Shown here piece after piece: positions 2,261-42,789 of a stretch of DNA of 64,000 nucleotides. The stretch's first letter is position 1; the number at the start of each line of letters is the position of its first letter. Under the pieces are notes generated by a model. That model was not told the DNA's origin. It saw only the letters and a list, made by a program, of their open reading frames with translations, and did not search any database. This DNA comes from Sphingomonas sp. Leaf242 (lineage in GTDB: Bacteria; Pseudomonadota; Alphaproteobacteria; Sphingomonadales; Sphingomonadaceae), in the NCBI RefSeq assembly GCF_001422045.1, contig NZ_LMLW01000012.1, forward strand, positions 1 to 64,000. Reading direction: 5' to 3'. The position numbers were made by a program, and so were the translations under genes.

Positions 2261-5064
2261 TAGAACTGTGTCCCTACGTTGAAAGTGATGAGCTTGGGGT
2301 CGTCGCCCTTCTGCTTGAGCAGAGCACGAGCGAGATCGATACGAAGCGGACCGAATGGCGAGTTCCAGTTCACGCCGATGCCGATCGACAGACGCGGCTT
2401 GGCAGAATTGCCGAGGAACTGCTCCGAATACGGACCATAGGTCGACGAATACTGGCTGTTGACGCTGGTCCCGGTGCAGGCCCCGCCGAGCGTCGACGAA
2501 TAGCCGACGGCGCAGGTCGTGACGGCATTCGGGTTCGTCGTGTCGGTCGACGGCACGACATACTGCAGCTTGCCGTCGGCGGTCTTGATCGGAGTCTGCA
2601 ACGGCAGGATCGTGACGTTGCCGTTGGCATCGACCGTCCTGGGGTACGAGTTGGGGTCGACGGTCAGGTTGGGCTTCGTGATGCTGAACAGCGAGCCCGC
2701 CTGGACGTAGATCGAAGGACGCAGGCCCAGTTCGCGCGCACCCGAACCGAGCGGGATCTCCATCTCGATGCGGCCAAGATAATAGGCGTTACCGCCGAGC
2801 GCATCGTCGATGTACTGGTTGCGATCGGTCACCAGGATCTGCTTACCCGTCGCCGAGTCCGTCGTGTACGGAATGCGCAACACGCGTGGGCCTACGCCGC
2901 GAATGTCGAACCCGCGGAACTGCGGCTCGCCGAGATAGAAGCGGTCGGTGATGCGGACACCGTCGATGCCGGACCTTTTGCTGCCTTCGAGCGACTTGAT
3001 ATAGCCACCCTCGCCGATCGCCGACAGGATGAAGCCGCTACCCGCGTTCCAGTACTTGGCGCCCTCAGCGCGCGTACGGATGTATTTCACGTCGCCGCCG
3101 AGACCCGCAAAATCCTGGCTGAACGAGAAGCGCGAGCCTGCCGTCGGGCGCAACCGGCTGTTGAGCGTGTCGCGGATCAGCGAATAGCCGACCGACGAGG
3201 TCCAGCGGTTGCCGATCGCTTCGCAGAGATAACGGCCGGCCTTGAGGATGTCGCACTGCCCATCGGTGAAGTAGGTCGACTCGTTCAGTCCGACCTTGTC
3301 GTAGGACAGACCGTAGCGCGCCGACAGCGACCAGAATTCGGTCAGCGGCACACCGGCACGAAGCTGGAAGCCGGTCGAGACCTGCGAATAGGTGGTCTGA
3401 CGATCGTTGCCGATATAATTGAACGAGTTGTAGTCGCGGCGGAAGATGTCGCCGCCGACCGCGATGTTCTTGTCGAACAGATACGGCTCGGTGAAGCCCA
3501 GCTCGATCGACTTCGAATAGCTCGAATAGTTCACGCCGGCGCGCAGTTCCTGGCCCTTGCCGCGGAAGTTGCGCTGCGTGATGTTCGCCTGGATGATGAA
3601 GCGTTCGAGGCTCGAATAGCCCGCCGACAGCTGGAGTTCGCCGGTCGACTTTTCTTCGAGGTTGGTCTCCAAGATCACGCGGTCGGGCGCCGAACCCGGC
3701 AGCTGCTTGATCTCCATCTTGTCCTGGAAATACCCCAGCGAGTTGATGCGATCCTGCGAACGCTTCACCTGGAAGCTGTTGAACGCATCGCCCTCGGCCA
3801 GACGGATCTCGCGACGCACGACCTTGTCCTGCGTCTGCGTGTTGCCGTTGATGTCGATACGCTCGACATAGGTGCGCTTGGCTTCGGCGATGTTGAAATT
3901 AATCCCCATCGTCAGCGTGTCGGCGTCCTTGGCGAACTCCGGGTTCACCTCGGTGAACGCATAGCCGAACAGGCCCGCGGTCTGGCTGAGATTGTCGACC
4001 GAATCCTCGACAAGCTTGGCGTTGTACCAATCGCCCTTCTTCAGCGGCAGCGACGCCGCGAGCTTCTTGTTGTCGAAGTCGCGAATCTGGCTGTCGACGG
4101 TGACGTCGCCGAACTTGTAGCGCTTGCCCTCCTCCACCACGTACGTGATGATGAAGTCCTTCTTGTCCGGCGTCAGCTCGGCCACGGCCGAGGTCACGCG
4201 GAAATCGGCATAGCCCTGCGTCAGGTAGAACTGGCGGAGCTTCTGCTGATCGTACGAAAGGCGATCCTGATCATAGCTGGTCGCCGACGACAGCAGGCGG
4301 AAGAAGCGCGACTGCTTGGTCGCCATCTGGCCACGGATCTGGTCGTCGGAGAACACCTCGTTGCCGAGGATGTTGATCTGGCGGACCTTCGACTTCGGCC
4401 CTTCGCTGACCTCGAACACGACGTCGACGCGGTTCTGGTCGAGATTGACCATCTTCGGATCGATCACCGCGGCGAAGCGGCCCTGGCGACGATACAGCTC
4501 GATGATCCGCGCGATATCCTGGCGGACCGCGGTGCGCGTGAAGATCTGGCGCGGCGCGAGCTTGATCTCCTTGGTGATCTTGTCGGTCTTGAGCGCCTTG
4601 TTGCCCTCGATGATCACGCGGTTGATGATCGGGTTCTCGCGCACGCGGAGAACGATGTTGCCGTCCTCGACGCCGGCGATCGAGTAATCCGCGAACAGGT
4701 CGCTGGCCTGGAGGTCCTTCAGCGCCTGGTCGAGCGTTTCCGCGGTGTACGGGATGCCGACGCGCAGCTTCGTGTAGGACAGCACCGTCTCGGGCTCGAT
4801 GCGCTGAGATCCCTCGACGCGCAAAGTCTTTATCGTTTGCGCGGATACCGGCGCGGCTACGGGCGTTACACCAACAGCACCCTTTGCGGGGGCGGCCGTG
4901 GTCGGCGCCTGACGACCCGACGCGGGGCTCGACGAAGGCGTTGCCGCCGGAGTCGCGGATCCAGCCGGCACGGTCTGTGCCAGCGCGGGAACGCCCGACA
5001 GGATCGTACCTGCGAGCAGCAGGGCGCCCTTACGCGCGAAATCGTAACCGTTGATCGCTGTCAC
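2260..5064 (-). CDS. bamA: Outer membrane protein assembly factor BamA
   Basis: BamA is the Omp85 insertase that folds beta-barrels into the outer membrane. The product is about 934 residues: a signal peptide ending PALAQ near residue 30, a Pro/Ala/Thr-rich linker of about 45 residues, five POTRA repeats to about residue 500, then the barrel. The lid-loop motif appears as FRGFDIRG, and the chain ends in Phe (VGTQF), as expected of a beta-signal. I chose the GTG at 5064, with AAGG upstream, over a longer frame to 5232 that intrudes into rseP. Two Cys pairs fall in predicted extracellular loops. The low-complexity linker before POTRA1 makes it longer than E. coli BamA. Confidence 0.95.
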   Translation of the reverse strand: MTAINGYDFARKGALLLAGTILSGVPALAQTVPAGSATPAATPSSSPASGRQAPTTAAPAKGAVGVTPVAAPVSAQTIKTLRVEGSQRIEPETVLSYTKLRVGIPYTAETLDQALKDLQASDLFADYSIAGVEDGNIVLRVRENPIINRVIIEGNKALKTDKITKEIKLAPRQIFTRTAVRQDIARIIELYRRQGRFAAVIDPKMVNLDQNRVDVVFEVSEGPKSKVRQINILGNEVFSDDQIRGQMATKQSRFFRLLSSATSYDQDRLSYDQQKLRQFYLTQGYADFRVTSAVAELTPDKKDFIITYVVEEGKRYKFGDVTVDSQIRDFDNKKLAASLPLKKGDWYNAKLVEDSVDNLSQTAGLFGYAFTEVNPEFAKDADTLTMGINFNIAEAKRTYVERIDINGNTQTQDKVVRREIRLAEGDAFNSFQVKRSQDRINSLGYFQDKMEIKQLPGSAPDRVILETNLEEKSTGELQLSAGYSSLERFIIQANITQRNFRGKGQELRAGVNYSSYSKSIELGFTEPYLFDKNIAVGGDIFRRDYNSFNYIGNDRQTTYSQVSTGFQLRAGVPLTEFWSLSARYGLSYDKVGLNESTYFTDGQCDILKAGRYLCEAIGNRWTSSVGYSLIRDTLNSRLRPTAGSRFSFSQDFAGLGGDVKYIRTRAEGAKYWNAGSGFILSAIGEGGYIKSLEGSKRSGIDGVRITDRFYLGEPQFRGFDIRGVGPRVLRIPYTTDSATGKQILVTDRNQYIDDALGGNAYYLGRIEMEIPLGSGARELGLRPSIYVQAGSLFSITKPNLTVDPNSYPRTVDANGNVTILPLQTPIKTADGKLQYVVPSTDTTNPNAVTTCAVGYSSTLGGACTGTSVNSQYSSTYGPYSEQFLGNSAKPRLSIGIGVNWNSPFGPLRIDLARALLKQKGDDPKLITFNVGTQF

Positions 5065-10420: not shown

Positions 10421-10517
10421 TCGTCATTCCCGCGGAGGCGGGAACCCATACTGGCTAGCGGCTCGATGGATCACCGGCGCCGGAGTTTATGGATCTCCGC
10501 CTACGCGGGGATGACGA
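10421..10517. repeat. Sphingomonad intergenic palindrome
   Basis: Inverted arms at 10421-10449 (tcgtcattcccgcggaggcg onward) and 10489-10517 (ending ctacgcggggatgacga) enclose about 40 bases. The unit belongs to the same broad family as the other 'cgaaggcggg' palindromes in this window. Confidence 0.75.
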
Positions 10518-18090: not shown

Positions 18091-18144
18091 TGTTCTCCCG
18101 CGAAGGCGGGAGTCCAGTCTGGGCCCCCGCCTTCGCGGGGGAAC
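18091..18144. repeat. Intergenic palindrome, 'tgttctcccgcgaaggcggg' type
   Basis: Arms 'tgttctcccgcgaaggcggg' and 'cccgccttcgcgggggaaca' flank 'agtccagtctgggcc'. A nearly identical copy lies at 27587-27645, and relatives lie at 20731, 21628 and 38404. Confidence 0.85.
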
Positions 18145-21627: not shown

Positions 21628-21686
21628 CTTGTTTCCCCGCGAAGGCGGGGACCCAGACCGGGCTCCCGCCTTCGCGGGAGAACAAG
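21628..21686. repeat. Intergenic palindrome, 'cttgtttccccgcgaaggcg' type
   Basis: Arms 'cttgtttccccgcgaaggcg' and 'cgccttcgcgggagaacaag' flank 'gggacccagaccgggctcc'. Nearly the same element is at 38404-38463. Confidence 0.85.
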
Positions 21687-27586: not shown

Positions 27587-27645
27587 GTTCTCCCGCGAAG
27601 GCGGGAGTCCAGTCTGGGCCCCCGCCTTCGCGGGGGAACAAGCTT
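27587..27645. repeat. Intergenic palindrome, copy of 18091 type
   Basis: Arms 'tgttctcccgcgaaggcggg' and 'cccgccttcgcgggggaaca' flank 'agtccagtctgggcc'; the unit continues 'agctt'. It matches 18091-18144 almost base for base. Confidence 0.85.
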
Positions 27646-34171: not shown

Positions 34172-34292
34172 GATCTGTCTCCCGCGGTGCCAGGTGAAGA
34201 TGCATCGCTGGGATCCGGGATAGTCCCGTGACACTGGACGGCCCATGCTGCAAAGTCCGCCAATTCATCGCCAGCGTCCAGGAATTGTCGCA

Positions 34293-35204
34293 ATGGATCC
34301 CTTGTCGGACGTACTCGCCCTGCTGAAGCCCAGCAGCTACGGATTTCGAGGCCTGGACGCCGGCGAGGACTGGGCGCTTGCCTACCCGCCGGCCGAAGGA
34401 GTCAAATGCTTCGCGATTCACACCGGGACATGCTGGATTGCACTGGAGGGCGGAAGCGAGCCGATGGCGCTTTACGCGGGCGACTTCATCCTGCTGCCCG
34501 GCCGCGTCGCGTTCAGCCTCTACAGCGCGATCGGCGCGCCGGTGACCGACGCCTTTGCATTCTTCCCGTCGTTCCCCGCCGGCGAGACCGGTGTGCTGGG
34601 CGGCGGCGGCAGTTGCTCGGGCGTGGGCGGCTTCTTCGACTTCACCGGGCTCCACGCCGACCTTTTGCTCGGCATCCTGCCCCCGATCGTCCACATCCGG
34701 GCAGAGGCGACCAAGGCGGCACTCGGCTGGCTGATCGAGCGGTTGATGCGCGAGCTGCGAGACCCGCAACCGGGCGGCACGCTGATGGCGGGGCATCTGG
34801 CGCAGACGCTGCTGATCGAGGCGCTGCGACTCCACCTCGCCGAACGCTCGCCGCATAGCGCTGGCTGGCTGTTCGCGCTGGCCGACACGCAGATGCGCGC
34901 CGTGATCTCGGCAATGCATGCAGACCCCGCCCGGCGCTGGACGCTCGCCGACCTCGCCCGAACAGGCGGCATGTCGCGGTCCAGCTTTGCCGTGCGGTTC
35001 AAGCAAACGGTCGGCGAGCCGGCAATGGACTATTTGACCCGCTGGCGGATGATGCTGGCGGCCGATCGGCTGGCAAGCGGGCGTGTCTCGATCGCGACCG
35101 TAGCCCCCGCCGTCGGCTACGAGTCTGAAAGCGCGTTCAGTGCCGCGTTCAAGCGGACGTTCGGCCACTCGCCGAGCGAGTTCACCAAGGCGGTGGCCGT
35201 GTAG
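34293..35204 (+). CDS. AraC family transcriptional regulator, cupin type
   Basis: This 303-residue regulator has an N-terminal AraC-type cupin (cupin_6-like) ligand domain (about residues 1-190) with a glycine-rich GGGGS loop near residue 108. The C-terminal tandem helix-turn-helix domain (about residues 200-300) has RWTLADLARTGGMSRSSFAVRFK and VGYESESAFSAAFKRTFG. The ATG at 34293 has AGGAATT upstream. It is divergent from the MDR oxidoreductase gene, which it likely controls. Confidence 0.9.
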   Translation: MDPLSDVLALLKPSSYGFRGLDAGEDWALAYPPAEGVKCFAIHTGTCWIALEGGSEPMALYAGDFILLPGRVAFSLYSAIGAPVTDAFAFFPSFPAGETGVLGGGGSCSGVGGFFDFTGLHADLLLGILPPIVHIRAEATKAALGWLIERLMRELRDPQPGGTLMAGHLAQTLLIEALRLHLAERSPHSAGWLFALADTQMRAVISAMHADPARRWTLADLARTGGMSRSSFAVRFKQTVGEPAMDYLTRWRMMLAADRLASGRVSIATVAPAVGYESESAFSAAFKRTFGHSPSEFTKAVAV

Positions 35205-35280
35205 CCGGCCTTATTGCCGCACGCGGCGATCGCGCAGACGTCCTTTTCAGCGTACAACAACGAGCGCGTGCGATCGATAA

Positions 35281-35295
35281 TGAGAGTTATTCGCA
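35281..35295 (+). promoter_or_regulatory. Candidate Fur box
   Basis: TGAGAGT-T-ATTCGCA matches the 7-1-7 Fur pattern TGAtAAT-n-ATTaTCA at 10 of 14 positions. It lies about 40 bases upstream of the PepSY gene, in an AT-rich pocket. Iron repression of the operon is inferred. Confidence 0.5.
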
Positions 35296-35335
35296 TTATT
35301 CTTGATGCGCGTTTCGACAGGCGTTAGGCGGGGAT

Positions 35336-35995
35336 GTGACATCGCAATCTCCCTCTTCACCTGGCCGCACATCAGTCAGCCGCAACCGGAAAAAATGGCG
35401 TAGCTGGTGGTTGAAGCAGCTCCATAGCTGGCATTGGATCAGCGCGGCTTTGTCGCTAGTCGGCATGCTGTTGTTCGCGATCACCGGCATCACACTCAAT
35501 CATGCGGCATCGATCGGTGCCAAGCCGGTGGTCATCGAGAAAAGCGGCATGCTGCTCCCCTCGCTGCGTCGCATGCTGACCGCACCGCACACGCCGGACA
35601 CCCCTCTGCCCGCGCCCGTCGCGAAAAGCGTCGCGGCCACGGTCGGCCTCGATCCCGCCGGCAAGTCGGTCGAGTGGTCCGACACCGACGCCTATATCGC
35701 GCTGCCACGCCCCGGTGGCGACGCCTGGGTCAGCATCGAGCGCGCGACCGGACGCATCACCGCGGAAACGACCGATCGCGGCTGGATCTCGTATTTGAAC
35801 GATCTCCACAAGGGGCGGAATGCGGGCGAAGGCTGGGCGTGGTTCATCGACATCTTCGCCGGCGCCTGCATCCTGTTCACGCTGACCGGACTGCTCCTGT
35901 TGCAGCTCCATGCGCGCCATCGGCCGACGACCTGGCCGATCGTCGCCGCCGGGCTCGCCATTCCCGTCCTGCTTGCCATCCTGTTCGTCCATTGA
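35336..35995 (+). CDS. PepSY-associated transmembrane protein
   Basis: This 219-residue inner-membrane protein has a basic cytoplasmic N-terminus and a first span starting LHSWHWISAALSLVG (about residues 29-55) with closely spaced His residues. A periplasmic PepSY-like domain (about 60-160) follows, then two C-terminal spans. Proteins of this family bind b-haem through membrane His residues and pass electrons across the membrane; ferric-siderophore reductases belong here. The start is GTG at 35336 with a GGCGGGG purine run upstream. It opens the operon with DUF2271, DUF4198 and ApbE genes, and sits behind a Fur-like site. Confidence 0.85.
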   Translation: MTSQSPSSPGRTSVSRNRKKWRSWWLKQLHSWHWISAALSLVGMLLFAITGITLNHAASIGAKPVVIEKSGMLLPSLRRMLTAPHTPDTPLPAPVAKSVAATVGLDPAGKSVEWSDTDAYIALPRPGGDAWVSIERATGRITAETTDRGWISYLNDLHKGRNAGEGWAWFIDIFAGACILFTLTGLLLLQLHARHRPTTWPIVAAGLAIPVLLAILFVH

Positions 35996-36006
35996 GGGGT
36001 TCTGCC

Positions 36007-36501
36007 ATGCGTCCTACCGCGTTGCTTTTGTTTGGCGGGGCGATCACCGCGCCTGCGCTGTCGTTGCCCGCCAGCGCCGCGCCCGCGGGCACCGTCACGA
36101 TCACCATCCCCCAGCTGAGCGTCGCGGAATATCACAAGCCCTATGTCGCGGTCTGGCTGGAGCCGGTCGGTGGCGGCGCACCGCGCACGCTCGCGGTCTG
36201 GTATGATTTGAAGAAGCGCGGCAACGATCCCGGTACCAAATGGCTGGCGGACCTGCGCGCCTGGTGGCGCAAGGGTGGCCGCAGCATGACGATGCCCGCA
36301 GACGGTATCAGCGGCGCGACGCGTGCGCCGGGCCAGTACACCATTCCCCTGCCCGCCGACATCAAGCCCGGCCAATACGTCCTGAACGTTGAGGCTGCGC
36401 GCGAGACCGGCGGCCGCGAGCTCGTGTCCGTACCGCTTACCGCCGGAGCCCGCACAACGGGCAAGACCGAGCTCGGCGCCGTCGCCATCTCCGCCCGCTA
36501 A
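36007..36501 (+). CDS. DUF2271 protein with covalent FMN acceptor motif
   Basis: This 164-residue periplasmic protein has a Sec signal (cut near residue 25, ASAAP) and a DUF2271 domain (YVAVWLEPVGGG, LAVWYDLKK, TKWLADLRAWW). Residues 99-105 read DGISGAT, the D-x-x-(S/T)-G-A-T signature modified by ApbE in NqrC and RnfG; Thr105 would carry FMN through a phosphoester. The ATG has GAGGGG upstream, 11 bases after the PepSY stop. I infer that this is the flavoprotein partner of the PepSY membrane protein and the substrate of the ApbE encoded two genes on. Confidence 0.88.
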   Translation: MRPTALLLFGGAITAPALSLPASAAPAGTVTITIPQLSVAEYHKPYVAVWLEPVGGGAPRTLAVWYDLKKRGNDPGTKWLADLRAWWRKGGRSMTMPADGISGATRAPGQYTIPLPADIKPGQYVLNVEAARETGGRELVSVPLTAGARTTGKTELGAVAISAR

Positions 36502-36511
36502 GGATCACAGC

Positions 36512-37351
36512 ATGAAGCCTTTTGTTGCACGCCTGATGGCCGCCGCTGCGCTGCTGTCGATCCCCGCCGCGCTGTCGGCGCACCGCATGTGGCTGTTGCC
36601 ATCCGCCACCGTGTTCTCGGGCACCGACGGCTGGGTGACGGTCGACGCCGCCGTCTCGAACGACCTGTTCTTCTTCGACCACCAGCCGCTCAGGCTCGAC
36701 GGCATGAAGGTCTGGCAGCCCGACGGCAGCGAAGGCGCATTGCAGAACGGCGCGACCGGCCGCTATCGCTCGGTGTTCGACGTCAAGCTCGACAAGCCCG
36801 GCACGTGGAAGATCGGCACGCAGATGTCCGCGGTCATGGGCAGCTTCAAGGTCGATGGCGTCGAGAAGCGCCTCGGCGGTCGTCGCGGTCCGCCACAGCC
36901 GAACGCGCCTGCCCCGCTGACCGTCGCCGACATCCCCGCCAACGCGACCGACGTGAAGGTCACGGAGGTGTCGGGCCGCAACGAGATCTTCGTGACCGCG
37001 GGCGCACCGACCACCACTGTGTTCAAGACGACCGGCAAGGGCCTCGAGTTCGCGCCGCTCACGCACCCCGACGAGCTGGTCGCGGGCGAGACCGCGAAGT
37101 TTCGCTTCCTGGTCGACGGCAAGCCCGCGTCCGGCTTGAAGGTCACGGTGATCCCCGGCGGCAAGCGCTATCGCAACGACGAGGGCGCACGCGAGCTGAC
37201 CACCGGCGCGGACGGCGTGTTGAGCGTCTCATGGCCGACCGCCGGGATGTACTGGCTCAACGCGACGCTCACCGACGCCAAGGCAACGAGCCCGCGCGCG
37301 ACCGAGCGCCGGATGAGCTATGTCACGACGCTCGAAGTCCTCACGCCCTGA
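36512..37351 (+). CDS. DUF4198 periplasmic protein
   Basis: This 279-residue exported protein has a signal peptide (to about residue 22, AALSA) followed by HRMWLLPSATVFSG, the typical start of DUF4198 (NikM-like) domains. Two Ig-like beta-sandwich halves are suggested, the second covering FLVDGKPASGLKVTVIPGGKRYR and MYWLNATL. Such proteins often accompany metal or haem uptake and are thought to bind a ligand. A second, more distant DUF4198 gene lies about 1.3 kb downstream on the other strand. Confidence 0.82.
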   Translation: MKPFVARLMAAAALLSIPAALSAHRMWLLPSATVFSGTDGWVTVDAAVSNDLFFFDHQPLRLDGMKVWQPDGSEGALQNGATGRYRSVFDVKLDKPGTWKIGTQMSAVMGSFKVDGVEKRLGGRRGPPQPNAPAPLTVADIPANATDVKVTEVSGRNEIFVTAGAPTTTVFKTTGKGLEFAPLTHPDELVAGETAKFRFLVDGKPASGLKVTVIPGGKRYRNDEGARELTTGADGVLSVSWPTAGMYWLNATLTDAKATSPRATERRMSYVTTLEVLTP

Positions 37352-37376
37352 GGCGTCCGGGTGTGAGTTTGGCGGC

Positions 37377-38348
37377 ATGAGGATCGCGCTGCCACCGACG
37401 ATCGACGCCACGGCGTTCGCGGCGCGCGATCCGTCGGCGGTAGTGCTCGATCTGCACGGCGCGACCATGGGGACGTCGTGGAGCATGCGCTTCGCTGCGC
37501 CCGCCGGCACCGACCCGTCGCCGATCCGCGCAGCGATCGTCGCGCGGCTGGCCAGGCTCGTCGCCGAGATGAGCCACTGGGCACCGGATTCGCTGCTGTC
37601 CCGCTTCAACCGGTCGGCGCCCGGCACCTGGACGACGCTCCCGTCCGACTTCGCGCATGTCATGACGCGCGGCTTGGCGATCGCCGAGCTGACCGGCGGC
37701 GCGTTCGATCCGACGATCGGCAAGCTCGTCGATGCCTGGGGTTTCGGCTCCGTCCCCGTCGCCTGCCCCCCAAGCACACCCGAAATCGAGAGGGCCCGCG
37801 CGACATCGGGCTGGCGTCGGCTGTCGTTCGCCCCCGACGGCGCGCATCTTCGTCAGCCCGGCGGCACCGCGCTCGACCTGTCGGGAATCGCCAAGGGCCA
37901 CGCGGTCGACGCCGTCGCCGACCTGCTGCACGATGTCGGCATCCCGAACGCACTGGTCGAGATCGGCGGCGAACTCGTCGGTCGTGGTATCAAGCCGGAC
38001 GGTGATCCCTGGTGGGTCGACCTCGAAAGTCCGCCTGGAATGGCGCTCCCCTCATTGCGCTTTGCGCTGCACGGGATGGCAGTAGCGACCTCCGGCGACT
38101 ACTGCCGCGGCGCGCACACGCTCGATCCACGCACCGGACGTCCGATCGAAACGCACGTCGTCTCCGCCAGCGCGGTCCACCAGACCGCGCTCGACGCCGA
38201 CGCCTGGGCGACCGCGTTGACCGTGCTCGGCCCGGACGGCCTTAACCTTGCGGACGACCAAAGGATCGCCGCTCGGCTCGTCACGGAGATCGGCGGCACC
38301 GTACGAGAATACCTCACTCCCGGTCTATCCGCGATGCTGATCGACTGA
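37377..38348 (+). CDS. apbE: FAD:protein FMN transferase ApbE
   Basis: ApbE transfers FMN from FAD to a Thr or Ser of an exported target protein. The 323-residue product has HGATMGTSWSMR near residue 29, the SRFNRS and GGAFDPTIGKLVDAWGF regions, LDLSGIAKGHAVDAVADLL near residue 168 and VEIGGELVGRG, all family hallmarks. There is no obvious signal peptide or lipobox, so it may act in the cytoplasm or be anchored through a partner. I chose the ATG at 37377 over one at 37320 that overlaps DUF4198. Its likely target is the DUF2271 protein of this operon. Confidence 0.93.
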   Translation: MRIALPPTIDATAFAARDPSAVVLDLHGATMGTSWSMRFAAPAGTDPSPIRAAIVARLARLVAEMSHWAPDSLLSRFNRSAPGTWTTLPSDFAHVMTRGLAIAELTGGAFDPTIGKLVDAWGFGSVPVACPPSTPEIERARATSGWRRLSFAPDGAHLRQPGGTALDLSGIAKGHAVDAVADLLHDVGIPNALVEIGGELVGRGIKPDGDPWWVDLESPPGMALPSLRFALHGMAVATSGDYCRGAHTLDPRTGRPIETHVVSASAVHQTALDADAWATALTVLGPDGLNLADDQRIAARLVTEIGGTVREYLTPGLSAMLID

Positions 38349-38403
38349 TCGCCGCCACTCGATACATCCGACCGAACAGGTGGCATCCTAAACCCGGCAA
38401 GAT

Positions 38404-38463
38404 CTTGTTTCCCCGCGAAGGCGGGGACCCAGACTGGACTCCCGCCTTCGCGGGAGAACAAGG
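38404..38463. repeat. Intergenic palindrome, copy of 21628 type
   Basis: Arms 'cttgtttccccgcgaaggcg' and 'cgccttcgcgggagaacaag' flank 'gggacccagactggactcc'. It separates convergent apbE and the DUF4198 gene. No gene is seen in the remaining 170 bases of this gap. Confidence 0.85.
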
Positions 38464-38634
38464 AGGCGTAAGATGACGTCGGATACAGCCCGATCAAATC
38501 GGGTCCGTTCCCAACCCCTTGCAGCGGACCAAGGCCAAGACGCTGCAGAACCGGGTGATGTCGATCACCGACGAGAATTAGCAGCACGCTGTAATCCTCC
38601 GCCAGGGGGAGGATACGGAGACAGCGACGTCGCC

Positions 38635-39456
38635 TCAGATTGCCTCGAACGCCAGCGTCACGGTGAAGCTCGAGTACGCATCCGCCGCGCCCGGCGTAGC
38701 TGCGCGGTGCCGCACCAGGATCAGATACCGCCCGGCATCGGACGGGATCAGCGTCACCTTCCCGGCCTTGTCGCTGTTCACCACCGCGACCTGCTTGCGG
38801 CCGTCATAGAACCCCGCCTCGCGGAACAGCGTCACGGGTTCGCCGGCGAGCGGCTTGCCCTCGTACAGGATTTCGAACGCGGCCGCCGCACCCGGCGCGT
38901 AGCTGCTCGGATCGCCGAGCGGGTGGATTTCCAGCGCCTTGCCGCGCGCCGCGAGAGCACCCGACGCGCCCGGCCTGCCCCGCACCACATACGCGTCGGC
39001 CAGCGTCGTGCTGCGCACGTCGACCAATGTCGCGCCGGGCGGTGGCGATTTGCCTTCGCGGACGATCGTCCAGGTATCGCCGGTCCGGTACATCTTGCTC
39101 AACCGCCCTATCCGCTGCCCGGACGAAAGCCGGTACACACCGTCCGCCGGTAGCACAGCCTCGACGATCGCCTGGTCGGTGGTCAGCGTCGGCGTGGCTA
39201 GCTTGACGGTCTTTCCGTCGGGGCCGGTGATCTCGAACGGTGCATCCTTCATCGCGATCTCGGGCCGGAATGCGTCCTCGGTGAACGACGCCTGGAACGT
39301 GACGCGATCACGCCCTGCCGCGTCGAACACGCTCGGCAGCACATACGGCATGTGCGCCGCCGAAGGCCCCGACACGAGGGCAAGCACGGTGGCTATGGCG
39401 GGGGCGAGCGCCCCGGTCGCTCGCGCCGTGCGCCAATTTCCCCTGATCTTCGTCAT
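38635..39456 (-). CDS. DUF4198 periplasmic protein, second copy
   Basis: This 273-residue exported protein has a longer signal region (to about residue 34, GPSAA), then HMPYVLPSVFDAAGRD, as in DUF4198 proteins. It has a beta-rich C-terminal domain with YEGKPLAGEPVTLFR and a GRYLILVRHR strand. It is divergent from the haem-type TonB receptor, sharing an intergenic Fur-like site. The ATG at 39456 has AAGGAG upstream. It is only weakly similar to the copy at 36512, so it is not a recent duplicate. Confidence 0.82.
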   Translation of the reverse strand: MTKIRGNWRTARATGALAPAIATVLALVSGPSAAHMPYVLPSVFDAAGRDRVTFQASFTEDAFRPEIAMKDAPFEITGPDGKTVKLATPTLTTDQAIVEAVLPADGVYRLSSGQRIGRLSKMYRTGDTWTIVREGKSPPPGATLVDVRSTTLADAYVVRGRPGASGALAARGKALEIHPLGDPSSYAPGAAAAFEILYEGKPLAGEPVTLFREAGFYDGRKQVAVVNSDKAGKVTLIPSDAGRYLILVRHRAATPGAADAYSSFTVTLAFEAI

Positions 39457-39487
39457 CGCGATGCTCCTTTTCGATGCCACTTGATAA

Positions 39488-39502
39488 CGAGAATGATTCG
39501 CA
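39488..39502 (+). promoter_or_regulatory. Candidate Fur box between divergent genes
   Basis: CGAGAAT-G-ATTCGCA matches the 7-1-7 Fur pattern at 10 of 14 positions. It sits 33 bases before the TonB receptor start and 31 bases from the DUF4198 start, so it could control both. Confidence 0.55.
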
Positions 39503-39535
39503 CTAGCAAGCTTTCAGACTGTGGGGATAACGAAC

Positions 39536-41812
39536 ATGACATTGATCAAATTGCTGGCCGGCATCTCGCCGGTCGCGCTGATGATCGGCACCGCCGGCCT
39601 TGCCCATGCAGAGCCCATTCTGGCGGAAGCGGCGCGCGCTTCGGCGACCGACATGTCGGCCACGACCGCGCCAGCCGCCGATCCGGAGGGTCAGGACAAG
39701 ACGATCACCGTCACCGCGACGCGTACTGAAAAGGCGGTCGAGGACGTTCCCGCGACCGTGTCGGTGATCGACGCGAAGACGATCCAGGATCGCTTCATCT
39801 CCGACATCAAAGATCTGGTGCGCTACGAGCCGGGCGTCACCGTCCGCCGCGCGCCGTCGCGCTTCACCGCCGCCGGATCCTCGACCGGACGCGACCGCGA
39901 CAGTGGGTTCAACATCCGCGGACTCGAAGGCAACCGCGTCCTCATCACCGTCGATGGCGTCCGCGTCCCGGACGCGTTCAGCTTCGGCGCGCAATCGGTC
40001 GGCCGCGGCGATTACGTCGATCTCGACCTGCTCAAATCGGTCGAGATCCTGCGCGGCCCCGCCTCCGCGCTCTATGGCAGCGACGGTGTCGCGGGCGCGG
40101 TCAGTTTCATCACCAAGGACCCGCGCGATTTCCTCGCCGATGGCAAGCTCGTGGGCGGCGGGCTTCGCTCCAGCTACGATTCCTCGGACGACAGCTGGAC
40201 CAACGGCTTCGTCGTTGCCGGCAAGACGGGAGATATCGAGGCGATGGTCGCCTATACCCGTCGCGACGGACACGAGACCGAGACCAAGGGCAGCAACGAC
40301 AGCGCGACCACCGATCGCACGACGGCGAACCCGCAGGACATCGAGTCCAACGCGCTGCTCGGCCGCCTCGTCTGGGCGCCGAACGATGCCAACCGGTTGC
40401 GGCTGACCTATGAGCATTTCTCGTCCGTGGTCGACACCGACGTCCTCAGCGCGATCGCCAAGCCCCCGCTCGCGGCGACATCGGTGATCGGCCTCAGCGC
40501 GCACGACACGACCGAGCGCAATCGCGGTACGCTCGACTATCGCTATATCGGCGACGGGATCGTCAGCGGTATCCGCGCGGCGGGCTATTACCAGAAGAGC
40601 CTCACGCTTCAGGCTGCGGCGGAGGACCGCAACACCGCCGCCGACCGCACGCGCATCAACCGCTTCGACAACGAAGTGTACGGCGGCACGCTGCAACTCG
40701 AGAGCCGCGCCGCGACCGGGGCGTTGACGCACCTGTTCGCCTATGGCGCCGACTACTCGCACACCCGCCAGACGGGTGTGCGAGACGGCACCGTCGCGCC
40801 TGCGGGCGAGGTCTATCCGACCCGCGCCTTCCCGACTACCGACTACACGCTGGTCGGCGTGTTCGCGCAGGACGAGATTGCCATCGCAGACGGGCTACTG
40901 ACGCTGTTCCCGTCGATCCGCTACGATCACTACAAGCTTAACCCGCAGAACGATCCGCTGTTCACCACCTTCGTCCCGCGCGAGCAGAGCGGATCGAAGG
41001 TGACGCCGCGGATCGGTGCGGTCGCCAAGCTGACCGAGGGCGTCCGGCTGTTCGCCAACTACGCGCAAGGCTTCAAGCCGCCCGAGCCGAACCAGATCAA
41101 CAACGGCTTCGCCAATATCACGCAGAATTACCGCTCGGTTCCCAATCCCGATCTGAAGCCCGAGACGAGCAGCAGCGTCGAGGGCGGCATCCGCTTGAGC
41201 GGTACCGGCTGGTCGCTGAGCGGAACCGCGTTCAGCAGCCGCTTCCGCAACTTCATCGACCAGGTTCAGGTGAGTGGCGCTTTCACTGCGGCCGACCCGG
41301 CGGTGTACCAGTACATCAATCGTGGCCGCGTCAAGATCGAGGGCCTCGAAGCACGTGGCGAGGCACGCCTGCCGATCGGCGTCGGCGTCCGCGCCGCTGC
41401 GTCCTACGCCAAGGGCACGATGCGGACGCCCGGTGTCGCCGGCACGCAGCCGCTCGACAGCATCGAACCCGTCAAGCTCGTCGCAGGCATCTTTTACCAG
41501 CCCGATGCCGGGCCGTTTCGCGCCGAGGTCATCGCGACGCATTCGGCGGGCAAGAAGGTTGGCGATACCAACAACAGCTGCAACACCGCAGCCACCAGTT
41601 GCTTCACGCCATCGGGGTTCTGGATCCTCGACGCCACCGCGTCGCTGCGCGTGATGGATCATGCGACGCTGCGCGCGGGGATCTTCAACATCACCGACAA
41701 GAAGTATTTCTGGTGGAGCGACGTCCGCGGACTGACCTCGACCTCGGTCGTGCGCGACGCCTATTCGCAACCCGGCCGCAACGCCGGGCTCTCCTTCTCG
41801 CTCAATCTGTGA
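39536..41812 (+). CDS. TonB-dependent haem/hemoglobin-type receptor
   Basis: This 758-residue outer-membrane receptor has a signal peptide ending AGLAHA near residue 25, a TonB box-like ITVTATRTEKAVEDVPATVSV, a plug domain (about 60-200) with NIRGLEGNRVLITVDGVR and VEILRGPASALYGSDGVAG, and a 22-strand barrel. It contains FKPPEPNQ and NPDLKPETS, resembling the FRAP and NPNL motifs of haem receptors, and ends in an aromatic-poor SFSLNL. It most resembles the hemoglobin/transferrin receptor family; the exact ligand is inferred. GGGGATA precedes the ATG. Confidence 0.87.
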   Translation: MTLIKLLAGISPVALMIGTAGLAHAEPILAEAARASATDMSATTAPAADPEGQDKTITVTATRTEKAVEDVPATVSVIDAKTIQDRFISDIKDLVRYEPGVTVRRAPSRFTAAGSSTGRDRDSGFNIRGLEGNRVLITVDGVRVPDAFSFGAQSVGRGDYVDLDLLKSVEILRGPASALYGSDGVAGAVSFITKDPRDFLADGKLVGGGLRSSYDSSDDSWTNGFVVAGKTGDIEAMVAYTRRDGHETETKGSNDSATTDRTTANPQDIESNALLGRLVWAPNDANRLRLTYEHFSSVVDTDVLSAIAKPPLAATSVIGLSAHDTTERNRGTLDYRYIGDGIVSGIRAAGYYQKSLTLQAAAEDRNTAADRTRINRFDNEVYGGTLQLESRAATGALTHLFAYGADYSHTRQTGVRDGTVAPAGEVYPTRAFPTTDYTLVGVFAQDEIAIADGLLTLFPSIRYDHYKLNPQNDPLFTTFVPREQSGSKVTPRIGAVAKLTEGVRLFANYAQGFKPPEPNQINNGFANITQNYRSVPNPDLKPETSSSVEGGIRLSGTGWSLSGTAFSSRFRNFIDQVQVSGAFTAADPAVYQYINRGRVKIEGLEARGEARLPIGVGVRAAASYAKGTMRTPGVAGTQPLDSIEPVKLVAGIFYQPDAGPFRAEVIATHSAGKKVGDTNNSCNTAATSCFTPSGFWILDATASLRVMDHATLRAGIFNITDKKYFWWSDVRGLTSTSVVRDAYSQPGRNAGLSFSLNL

Positions 41813-41820
41813 GGCTTTTG

Positions 41821-42789
41821 ATGTTCCGCTCCCTTCTTCTCGCGACCGGGCTGACGCTGGCTGCGCTCCCCCTCGCGCCGACGATCGCGTCGGCGCAAAC
41901 GCAGGCCGTCTATGGCGACCAGGCCCGCGATCACGCATCGATCCTGGCGATGGCCGGCACCTTCAAAGTGACGTTCGACATGCGAGAGACGACGCCGCTG
42001 GTCGCGGGCTACAAGCCCTACCCCGCCAAGCTCAGCGGCGGGCACGAGGTCGTCCGCGCGATCGTCGATACGCCCGACCACGTCGTCCTCCAGCATCTGC
42101 TGGTCGTCACGGACGGCAACGCCAAGACGATGGTGATCAAGCACTGGCGGCAGGACTGGACGTGGCAGCCCGAGAGCGTGCTCGTCTATACCGCGGCAGG
42201 CCGCTGGACCCTGCGTCCGCTCGCCGAGGCGGAACGACGTGGCGCATGGTCGCAGACGGTGTGGCAGACCGACGATTCCCCGCGATACGGCGGGATCGGT
42301 CGCTGGCGCTACGACGACGGCGCCTCTCGCTGGACCAGCGACGAGACGCGCCGGCCGCTCGCGCGCCGCGATGCGACCCGGAATCCGCCTTATGACCATT
42401 ACGTCGGCAGCAATCGCCACGTGCTCACCCCCGCCGGCTGGGTCCACGAACAGGACAACGCCAAGATCGGCCTCAAGGACGGCAGACCCGCCACGTACGT
42501 CCACGAATACGTCATCAACACCTACACCCCCGCGACCGACTTCGCGGTAGCGGCTGCGGACGCGTATTGGGCGAAGACGAAGGACTATTGGGCCGCGGTC
42601 CGCACCGACTGGGACCGCGCGATCGCGAAAGGCTCAGGCCTGCGGGTTGCGGAAGATGCGTCGAATGGGTCGACCACCGGCCACCAGTTGATGTTACTCG
42701 CCGACGATATCGCGGCGCGTGAAACCGATCAGAAGTCGGGAGAGGCCGAAGCCGCCAATCTGATCCGGCGCGAGAGCGGGACATCATGA
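41821..42789 (+). CDS. DUF6607 family exported protein
   Basis: This 322-residue protein has a signal peptide ending ASAQT near residue 26 and a DUF6607-type body: GTFKVTFDMRET, VLQHLLVV, HWRQDWTWQPESVLVY and repeated Trp-rich segments ending WVHEQDNAK. The ATG lies eight bases after the TonB receptor stop, so the two are co-transcribed. Members commonly sit beside TonB receptors and PepSY/DUF2271 genes, but no activity is known to me. Confidence 0.8.
   Translation: MFRSLLLATGLTLAALPLAPTIASAQTQAVYGDQARDHASILAMAGTFKVTFDMRETTPLVAGYKPYPAKLSGGHEVVRAIVDTPDHVVLQHLLVVTDGNAKTMVIKHWRQDWTWQPESVLVYTAAGRWTLRPLAEAERRGAWSQTVWQTDDSPRYGGIGRWRYDDGASRWTSDETRRPLARRDATRNPPYDHYVGSNRHVLTPAGWVHEQDNAKIGLKDGRPATYVHEYVINTYTPATDFAVAAADAYWAKTKDYWAAVRTDWDRAIAKGSGLRVAEDASNGSTTGHQLMLLADDIAARETDQKSGEAEAANLIRRESGTS

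Follow-up and report, generated by a model that had tools for sequence, protein, structure and literature searches.

In which compartment does the DUF2271 protein of a PepSY-type operon receive its flavin when the ApbE encoded beside it lacks a recognisable signal peptide? The question arises from the window, a 64,000-nucleotide stretch of Sphingomonas sp. Leaf242. Four genes follow one another there on the plus strand, separated by 11, 10 and 25 bp. They encode a PepSY_TM_like_2 membrane protein that is likely a b-haem protein (35336..35995; PF16357, E 5e-76, 255.6 bits; PF03929, 42.7 bits), a DUF2271 protein of 164 aa with a Sec-type signal-like N-terminus (36007..36501; PF10029, E 1.4e-38), a DUF4198 protein with a predicted mature N-terminus at His24 (36512..37351; PF10670, E 4.4e-54) and the FAD:protein FMN transferase ApbE (37377..38348; PF02424, E 3.2e-71, 240 bits). 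The Pfam matches bear out the order PepSY, DUF2271, DUF4198, ApbE on one strand that an earlier note on this DNA had read from the letters. That note gave the locus as 36007-38348; the genes sit where it placed them, but the operon starts upstream: its PepSY gene begins at 35336 and is preceded by a Fur-like box (35276).

Beyond the ApbE gene, a second DUF4198 protein (38635..39480, minus strand; PF10670, E 2e-31) is encoded divergently from a TonB-dependent receptor of the haem/haemoglobin family (39536..41812, plus strand; TIGR01786, 418 bits with a cut-off of 323.75; TIGR01785, 384 bits with a cut-off of 316.85), and a DUF6607 protein is encoded directly 3' of the receptor (41821-42789, plus strand; E 4e-63). 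This second DUF4198 paralogue also has Ala-His at its likely signal cleavage site, and a Fur-like box separates it from the receptor. Elsewhere in the window we noted a 45-bp paired palindromic element with CCCGCCTTCGCGGG arms, presumably resembling a REP/BIME-type repeat, at 18096-18140, 21635-21679, 27591-27635 and 38411-38455 (also 10428-10443). Its arms match nine times in the window, with 0.21 matches expected, and the copy at 38411-38455 lies just 3' of the ApbE gene.

The association of PepSY, DUF2271, DUF4198 and ApbE is already published. The survey of Meheust 2021 put the number of PepSY-like flavinylation clusters at 3220, of which 2833 contain DUF2271 and 1500 DUF4198, and proposed a role in iron reduction (PMC8238504). 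These clusters resemble the window's operon in gene content and in their [ST]GA[ST]-type acceptor. Their definition places PF03929 or PF16357 beside flavinylation genes, and the window's PepSY gene, which matches both profiles, has DUF2271 and ApbE adjoining it. The definition also asks that one or more target genes encode a signal peptide, for which the window offers the signal-like N-terminus that our home-made rule finds on DUF2271; signal-less ApbEs go undiscussed in the accessible text. Within that survey, the Amantichitinum ursilacus DUF2271 protein was flavinylated by its cognate ApbE in E. coli, and a Thr-to-Ala exchange abolished the modification (PMC8238504). Structural context for flavinylation and PepSY haem is also available (PMC11334425).

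The A. ursilacus pair, including its Thr-to-Ala variant, lends good support to the proposal in the earlier note that ApbE flavinylates DUF2271, an interpretation that was right in its core, already in print and, taken as a whole, partly supported here. The pairing is further backed by the genome, which encodes one ApbE and in which profile searches returned no match for FMN_bind or NqrB/RnfD. Among 147 genomes drawn from the order, those of the window's family with DUF2271 are the 15 that also carry ApbE, and none of the 20 family members listed without ApbE is among the DUF2271 matches. The enzyme itself looks intact, judging by its PF02424 fold and active-site residues. Its fold is best matched by V. 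cholerae ApbE (6nxi, E 2e-30), and an alignment of 32 sequences has 34 invariant columns, including Ser239, His247 and Asp275, which by their place in the motifs are taken to be the triad named in a review of ApbE (PMC12052999).

The predicted acceptor is Thr105, the last residue of DGISGAT. Counting on the translation placed this motif exactly where the earlier note had it, at residues 99-105 of DUF2271 (codons 36301-36321, plus strand), and it conforms to the pattern of ApbE substrates, D-x-x-[ST]-G-A-[ST]. We compared it across 144 stand-alone DUF2271 homologues drawn from two sets. The first began with 88 loci; removing 8 ApbE-DUF2271 fusions, 15 short-type loci and 2 without a profile match left 44 with ApbE near and 19 free of ApbE, and the window brought the former to 45 and the set to 64 rows. 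The second comprised the best 80 of at least 523 relatives, with Cupriavidus, Stutzerimonas and Herbaspirillum abundant; 57 of its loci have ApbE near and 23 do not, 4 of these 23 having less than 3 kb of contig downstream. The 144 proteins include 142 distinct sequences, one of them common to both sets (L087/L201).

Loss of the motif among homologues is what the earlier note had named as counting against the pairing. The acceptor position held, with Thr or Ser as the last motif residue in 144/144 homologues (the second set being the best 80 of at least 523), but the strict [ST]GA[ST] form is present in only 93/144 and absent in 51. It occurs in 23/45 first-set loci with ApbE near and 9/19 without, and in 47/57 and 14/23, respectively, of the loci among the best 80 of at least 523. 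The usual deviations are Ala to Pro at position 6 and Gly to Ser or Ala at position 5. We regard the motif as more than chance because the acceptor is kept throughout and because, in the window's family, the 15 genomes with DUF2271 are also those with ApbE.

A link between Pro at position 6 and an in-operon ApbE was considered and dropped, as it had no support beyond kinship (independent-pairs median p 1). The raw counts were 18/45 first-set loci with an in-operon ApbE vs 0/19 without, and 5/57 vs 1/23 in the second set (best 80 of at least 523), where the contig of the sole ApbE-free Pro locus, L231, ends 716 bp downstream. A 101-row tree shows only two changes in the ApbE-near label as against 12 in Pro; this tree took 37 of the 80 second-set rows, namely every second one minus L171, L179, L193, L226 and L231.

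We found no close solved structure for DUF2271. An AA9-like or LPMO reading was rejected, with a match at E 4e-4 that fell below the cut-off and no PDB match for the DUF2271 model (AF2, mean pLDDT 84) at E <= 0.001. A similarity to FlgD (E 0.002) covers part of the domain only, and we drew nothing from it. Two variants of the family stand apart. The short subfamily (L044, L081-L083, L126-L132, L135-L137, L139) carries motifs such as INGITGAS (L044, L081, L082) and DAITGAS (L083); ApbE lies about 2 kb downstream in the loci measured, L083 excepted, and the profiles used gave no PepSY or DUF4198 match at these loci. The ApbE-DUF2271 fusions (L035, L037, L039-L041, L080, L123, L125) have signal-like N-termini by eye and a degenerate motif, for example DGVSRPT, with a PepSY match at the locus of four (L039, L040, L080, L125).

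We asked which products of the operon look exported. Signal peptides were assessed by two home-made tests: a hydrophobicity score with cuts at 1.6 and 1.8, and a composite rule combining charge, core and cleavage site, with all ATG, GTG and TTG starts 10-75 aa before the ApbE domain tried. The 102 in-operon ApbEs comprise 45 from the first set, the window included, and 57 from the second (best 80 of at least 523). By the composite rule, signal-like N-termini were found on 99/102 DUF2271 and 99/99 DUF4198 proteins, as against 19/102 ApbEs; the remaining 83 in-operon ApbEs showed no signal peptide. The hydrophobicity score gave 6/45 ApbEs, 61/63 DUF2271 and 70/73 DUF4198 proteins at >=1.6, and 3/45, just 44/63 for the DUF2271 control, and 70/73 at >=1.8; five ApbEs without a start codon in the scored range were counted as negative. 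At the 1.6 cut, 0/15 short-type ApbEs were signal-like. From their N-termini, then, DUF2271 and DUF4198 look exported and the operon's ApbE does not.

ApbEs are typically, though not universally, periplasmic by virtue of a signal peptide or lipid anchor. By both rules the window's ApbE departs from this pattern: its N-terminus, MRIALPPTIDATAFAARD, shows no recognisable signal peptide, and neither rule flagged an alternative start. Among the 19 flagged ApbEs, L100 and L246 were judged genuine by eye. The other 17, including L222 and L235 from Andreprevotia, which we take to be a genus near A. ursilacus, were set aside by eye, the flagged stretch overlapping an R-V-L-V-P-like segment or directly following it. 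A loose pattern for this segment matches 26/45 first-set and 48/57 second-set in-operon ApbEs (second set, best 80 of at least 523). Its counterpart in the window, MRIALP (37377..37394, plus strand; block pLDDT 93), forms the start of a folded strand in the AF2 model (residues 2-4; pLDDT 95.8), at the site where one would look for a signal peptide. Tat export of the window's DUF2271 was rejected, there being no RR near its N-terminus; RR does occur near the start in 14 of the 99 signal-like DUF2271 N-termini, and Tat is possible for those 14.

Control genomes speak to the sensitivity of the test. All 18 genomes that contain the 19 ApbE-free loci of the first set hold ApbE elsewhere, and in 18/18 at least one such ApbE has a signal-like N-terminus (with a lipobox in 16); the score therefore detects ApbE signal peptides where they are present. 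Conversely, no second PF02424 match exists in 37 of the 45 genomes whose operon includes ApbE (first set plus window), a figure made up of 14/15 in the window's family and 23/30 others, and these 37 thus have no second known ApbE for work outside the cytosol.

The signal-less enzymes were placed on an ApbE tree of 113 domains, built by a quick method with SH-aLRT support only. Its rows are the 45 first-set and 32 of the 57 second-set in-operon ApbEs (the latter from the best 80 of at least 523), 22 of 28 from elsewhere, 6 of the 8 fusions and 8 of the 15 short-type ApbEs. With SH-aLRT 99, a single group gathers 85 of these rows: 75 in-operon ApbEs taken as signal-less, the 8 short-type rows and two signal-bearing exceptions, L100 and L246; L238, close to these two, has no signal peptide. 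Outside this group fall the fusions and all 22 rows from elsewhere, 19 of them taken as signal-bearing and three as signal-less (L162, L163, L167). A two-state count of signal peptides across the whole tree needs four changes, the simplest account being a single loss at the 85-row group followed by a regain in the lineage of L100 and L246. The clade of the operon's ApbE thus appears, on this phylogeny, to have lost its signal peptide.

How could an apparently cytosolic enzyme serve an exported protein? Our preferred reading, which we hold to be as probable as its denial, is a Fur-controlled PepSY-type operon for extracytosolic electron transfer in iron acquisition, in which the signal-less ApbE flavinylates DUF2271 in the cytosol before Sec export. 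With FAD and Mg available in the cytosol, ApbE would attach FMN there to Thr105 of the DUF2271 precursor, and Sec would then carry the protein across the membrane with its FMN already attached. According to the review, ApbE needs no more than a seven-residue motif (PMC12052999), and an unfolded chain could therefore be its substrate. The wider proposition, that the whole ApbE clade moved to the cytosol, flavinylates the unfolded precursor of the exported DUF2271 and leaves Sec to translocate a chain with covalent flavin, we place a shade under an even chance. One precedent counts against the cytosolic reading: in Salmonella, a cytosolic ApbE was no substitute for the periplasmic one (PMC12052999). 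The same review describes cytosolic ApbEs whose targets are soluble or fused, among them that of Klebsiella pneumoniae, which acts with a soluble fumarate reductase and, like the window's enzyme, has no signal peptide; unlike the window's DUF2271 with its signal-like N-terminus, however, that substrate is soluble and cytosolic. Moving a chain with a covalent cofactor is usually considered a task for Tat. We know of no ApbE substrate for which Sec passage of the FMN-bearing chain has been described.

Two accounts keep ApbE outside the cytosol, and we consider both unlikely. ApbE might be exported without a classical signal peptide, being leaderless or using an unusual start, and flavinylate folded DUF2271 in the periplasm as for NqrC and RnfG. 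Periplasmic flavinylation is the rule (PMC12052999), and it can apparently work in the DUF2271 family, since signal-like N-termini occur on the fusions and in the L100/L246 group. Yet the search across every start 10-75 aa before the domain left 83/102 enzymes with nothing, the relatives L088 and L094 begin directly at the ApbE domain, and no export route is known for ApbE. The locus might instead be a standard PepSY flavinylation operon with an exported ApbE, the missing signal peptide reflecting a limit of our test, an account that we think similarly improbable. Meheust 2021 describes its apbE construct from A. ursilacus as signal peptide-truncated (PMC8238504), and the Andreprevotia enzymes L222 and L235 are among the 19/102 that the composite rule flags. 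However, the same rule recognises nearly all of the DUF2271 proteins and every DUF4198 protein, a similar score sees a signal-like ApbE in each of the 18 control genomes, and the flagged Andreprevotia N-termini, MMRRVLIPPTLAALPP and MRHVLIPPALAALSPRR, contain R-V-L-I-P, which places a Pro within the core.

Less probable still is that the cytosolic ApbE acts on another target and that the DUF2271 proteins of this clade are unflavinylated or partly flavinylated. The loss of the strict motif in 51/144 homologues, including 22/45 first-set loci that adjoin ApbE, would fit such a decoupling. Against it stand the unbroken retention of the acceptor Thr/Ser, the absence of FMN_bind and NqrB/RnfD matches from the genome, the shared presence of DUF2271 and ApbE in the same 15 family genomes and the cognate pair that worked in E. 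coli (PMC8238504).

The other parts of the preferred reading, cytosolic flavinylation before Sec export within an iron-acquisition operon, concern regulation and electron flow. Fur-like boxes were scored over 19 positions against a Fur consensus, with shuffles of the upstream region as control. A site at 35276..35294 (plus strand), 41 bp 5' of the PepSY start, matches at 14/19 positions, and 0/100 shuffles scored as well; a second site between the second DUF4198 gene and the TonB receptor (39483..39501, plus strand) also matches at 14/19. Of 130 loci that include PepSY, 61 had a best upstream site equalled by at most 1/100 shuffles. A regulated counterpart is the orthologous Caulobacter crescentus CC_3059-3063 (CCNA_03155-03159), where DUF2271, DUF4198 and ApbE occur in the same order in an operon that is iron-responsive, bound by Fur and under its repression (PMC3751524). 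A transporter-annotated gene precedes them, the locus has been termed PepSY-like and insertions in it reduce fitness under EDTA (PMC11870441). The two loci differ in what follows, a gene with a sulfite reductase flavoprotein annotation in Caulobacter and a divergent DUF4198 gene and TonB receptor in the window. In Alteromonas, DUF2271/DUF4198 pairs go up under iron limitation (PMC7190382).

The earlier note proposed a chain from a cytoplasmic reductant through membrane haem to FMN. Its haem step is consistent with five near-invariant PepSY histidines (His33, 56, 158, 192 and 219, each in 119 to 130 of 131 sequences), but a scan of eight proteins from 34245-42789 turned up no reductase, and quinol as the electron donor is our guess. 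The PepSY protein ends in His219 (128/131), a possible haem ligand or docking point; an inside N-terminus would put this residue where the third helix reaches the periplasm. In the periplasm, electrons would pass from the PepSY membrane haem to the FMN on Thr105 and from this flavin to ferric iron or a ferric complex, reducing it. With its N-terminal His, DUF4198 may then bind the metal so released, in line with the Ala23-His24 pair found in 134/134 aligned sequences. DUF4198 proteins with an N-terminal His after signal cleavage, as predicted in the window, bind nickel (PMC12537917); the window's DUF4198 differs from them in its neighbours, Fur-like boxes and a TonB receptor of the haem type.

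What is new and testable in this account is the compartment where the flavin is attached. We found no description of the compartment mismatch in the mostly open-access literature searched, which is weak evidence of novelty. Extracytosolic flavinylation has been taken as a process outside the cytosol, needing exported ApbE and exported FAD. If flavinylation precedes export, DUF2271 would be a cofactor-loaded Sec substrate and export of FAD to the periplasm would not be needed. If one large clade of ApbEs works inside the cell, part of the published PepSY systems would need no FAD exporter.
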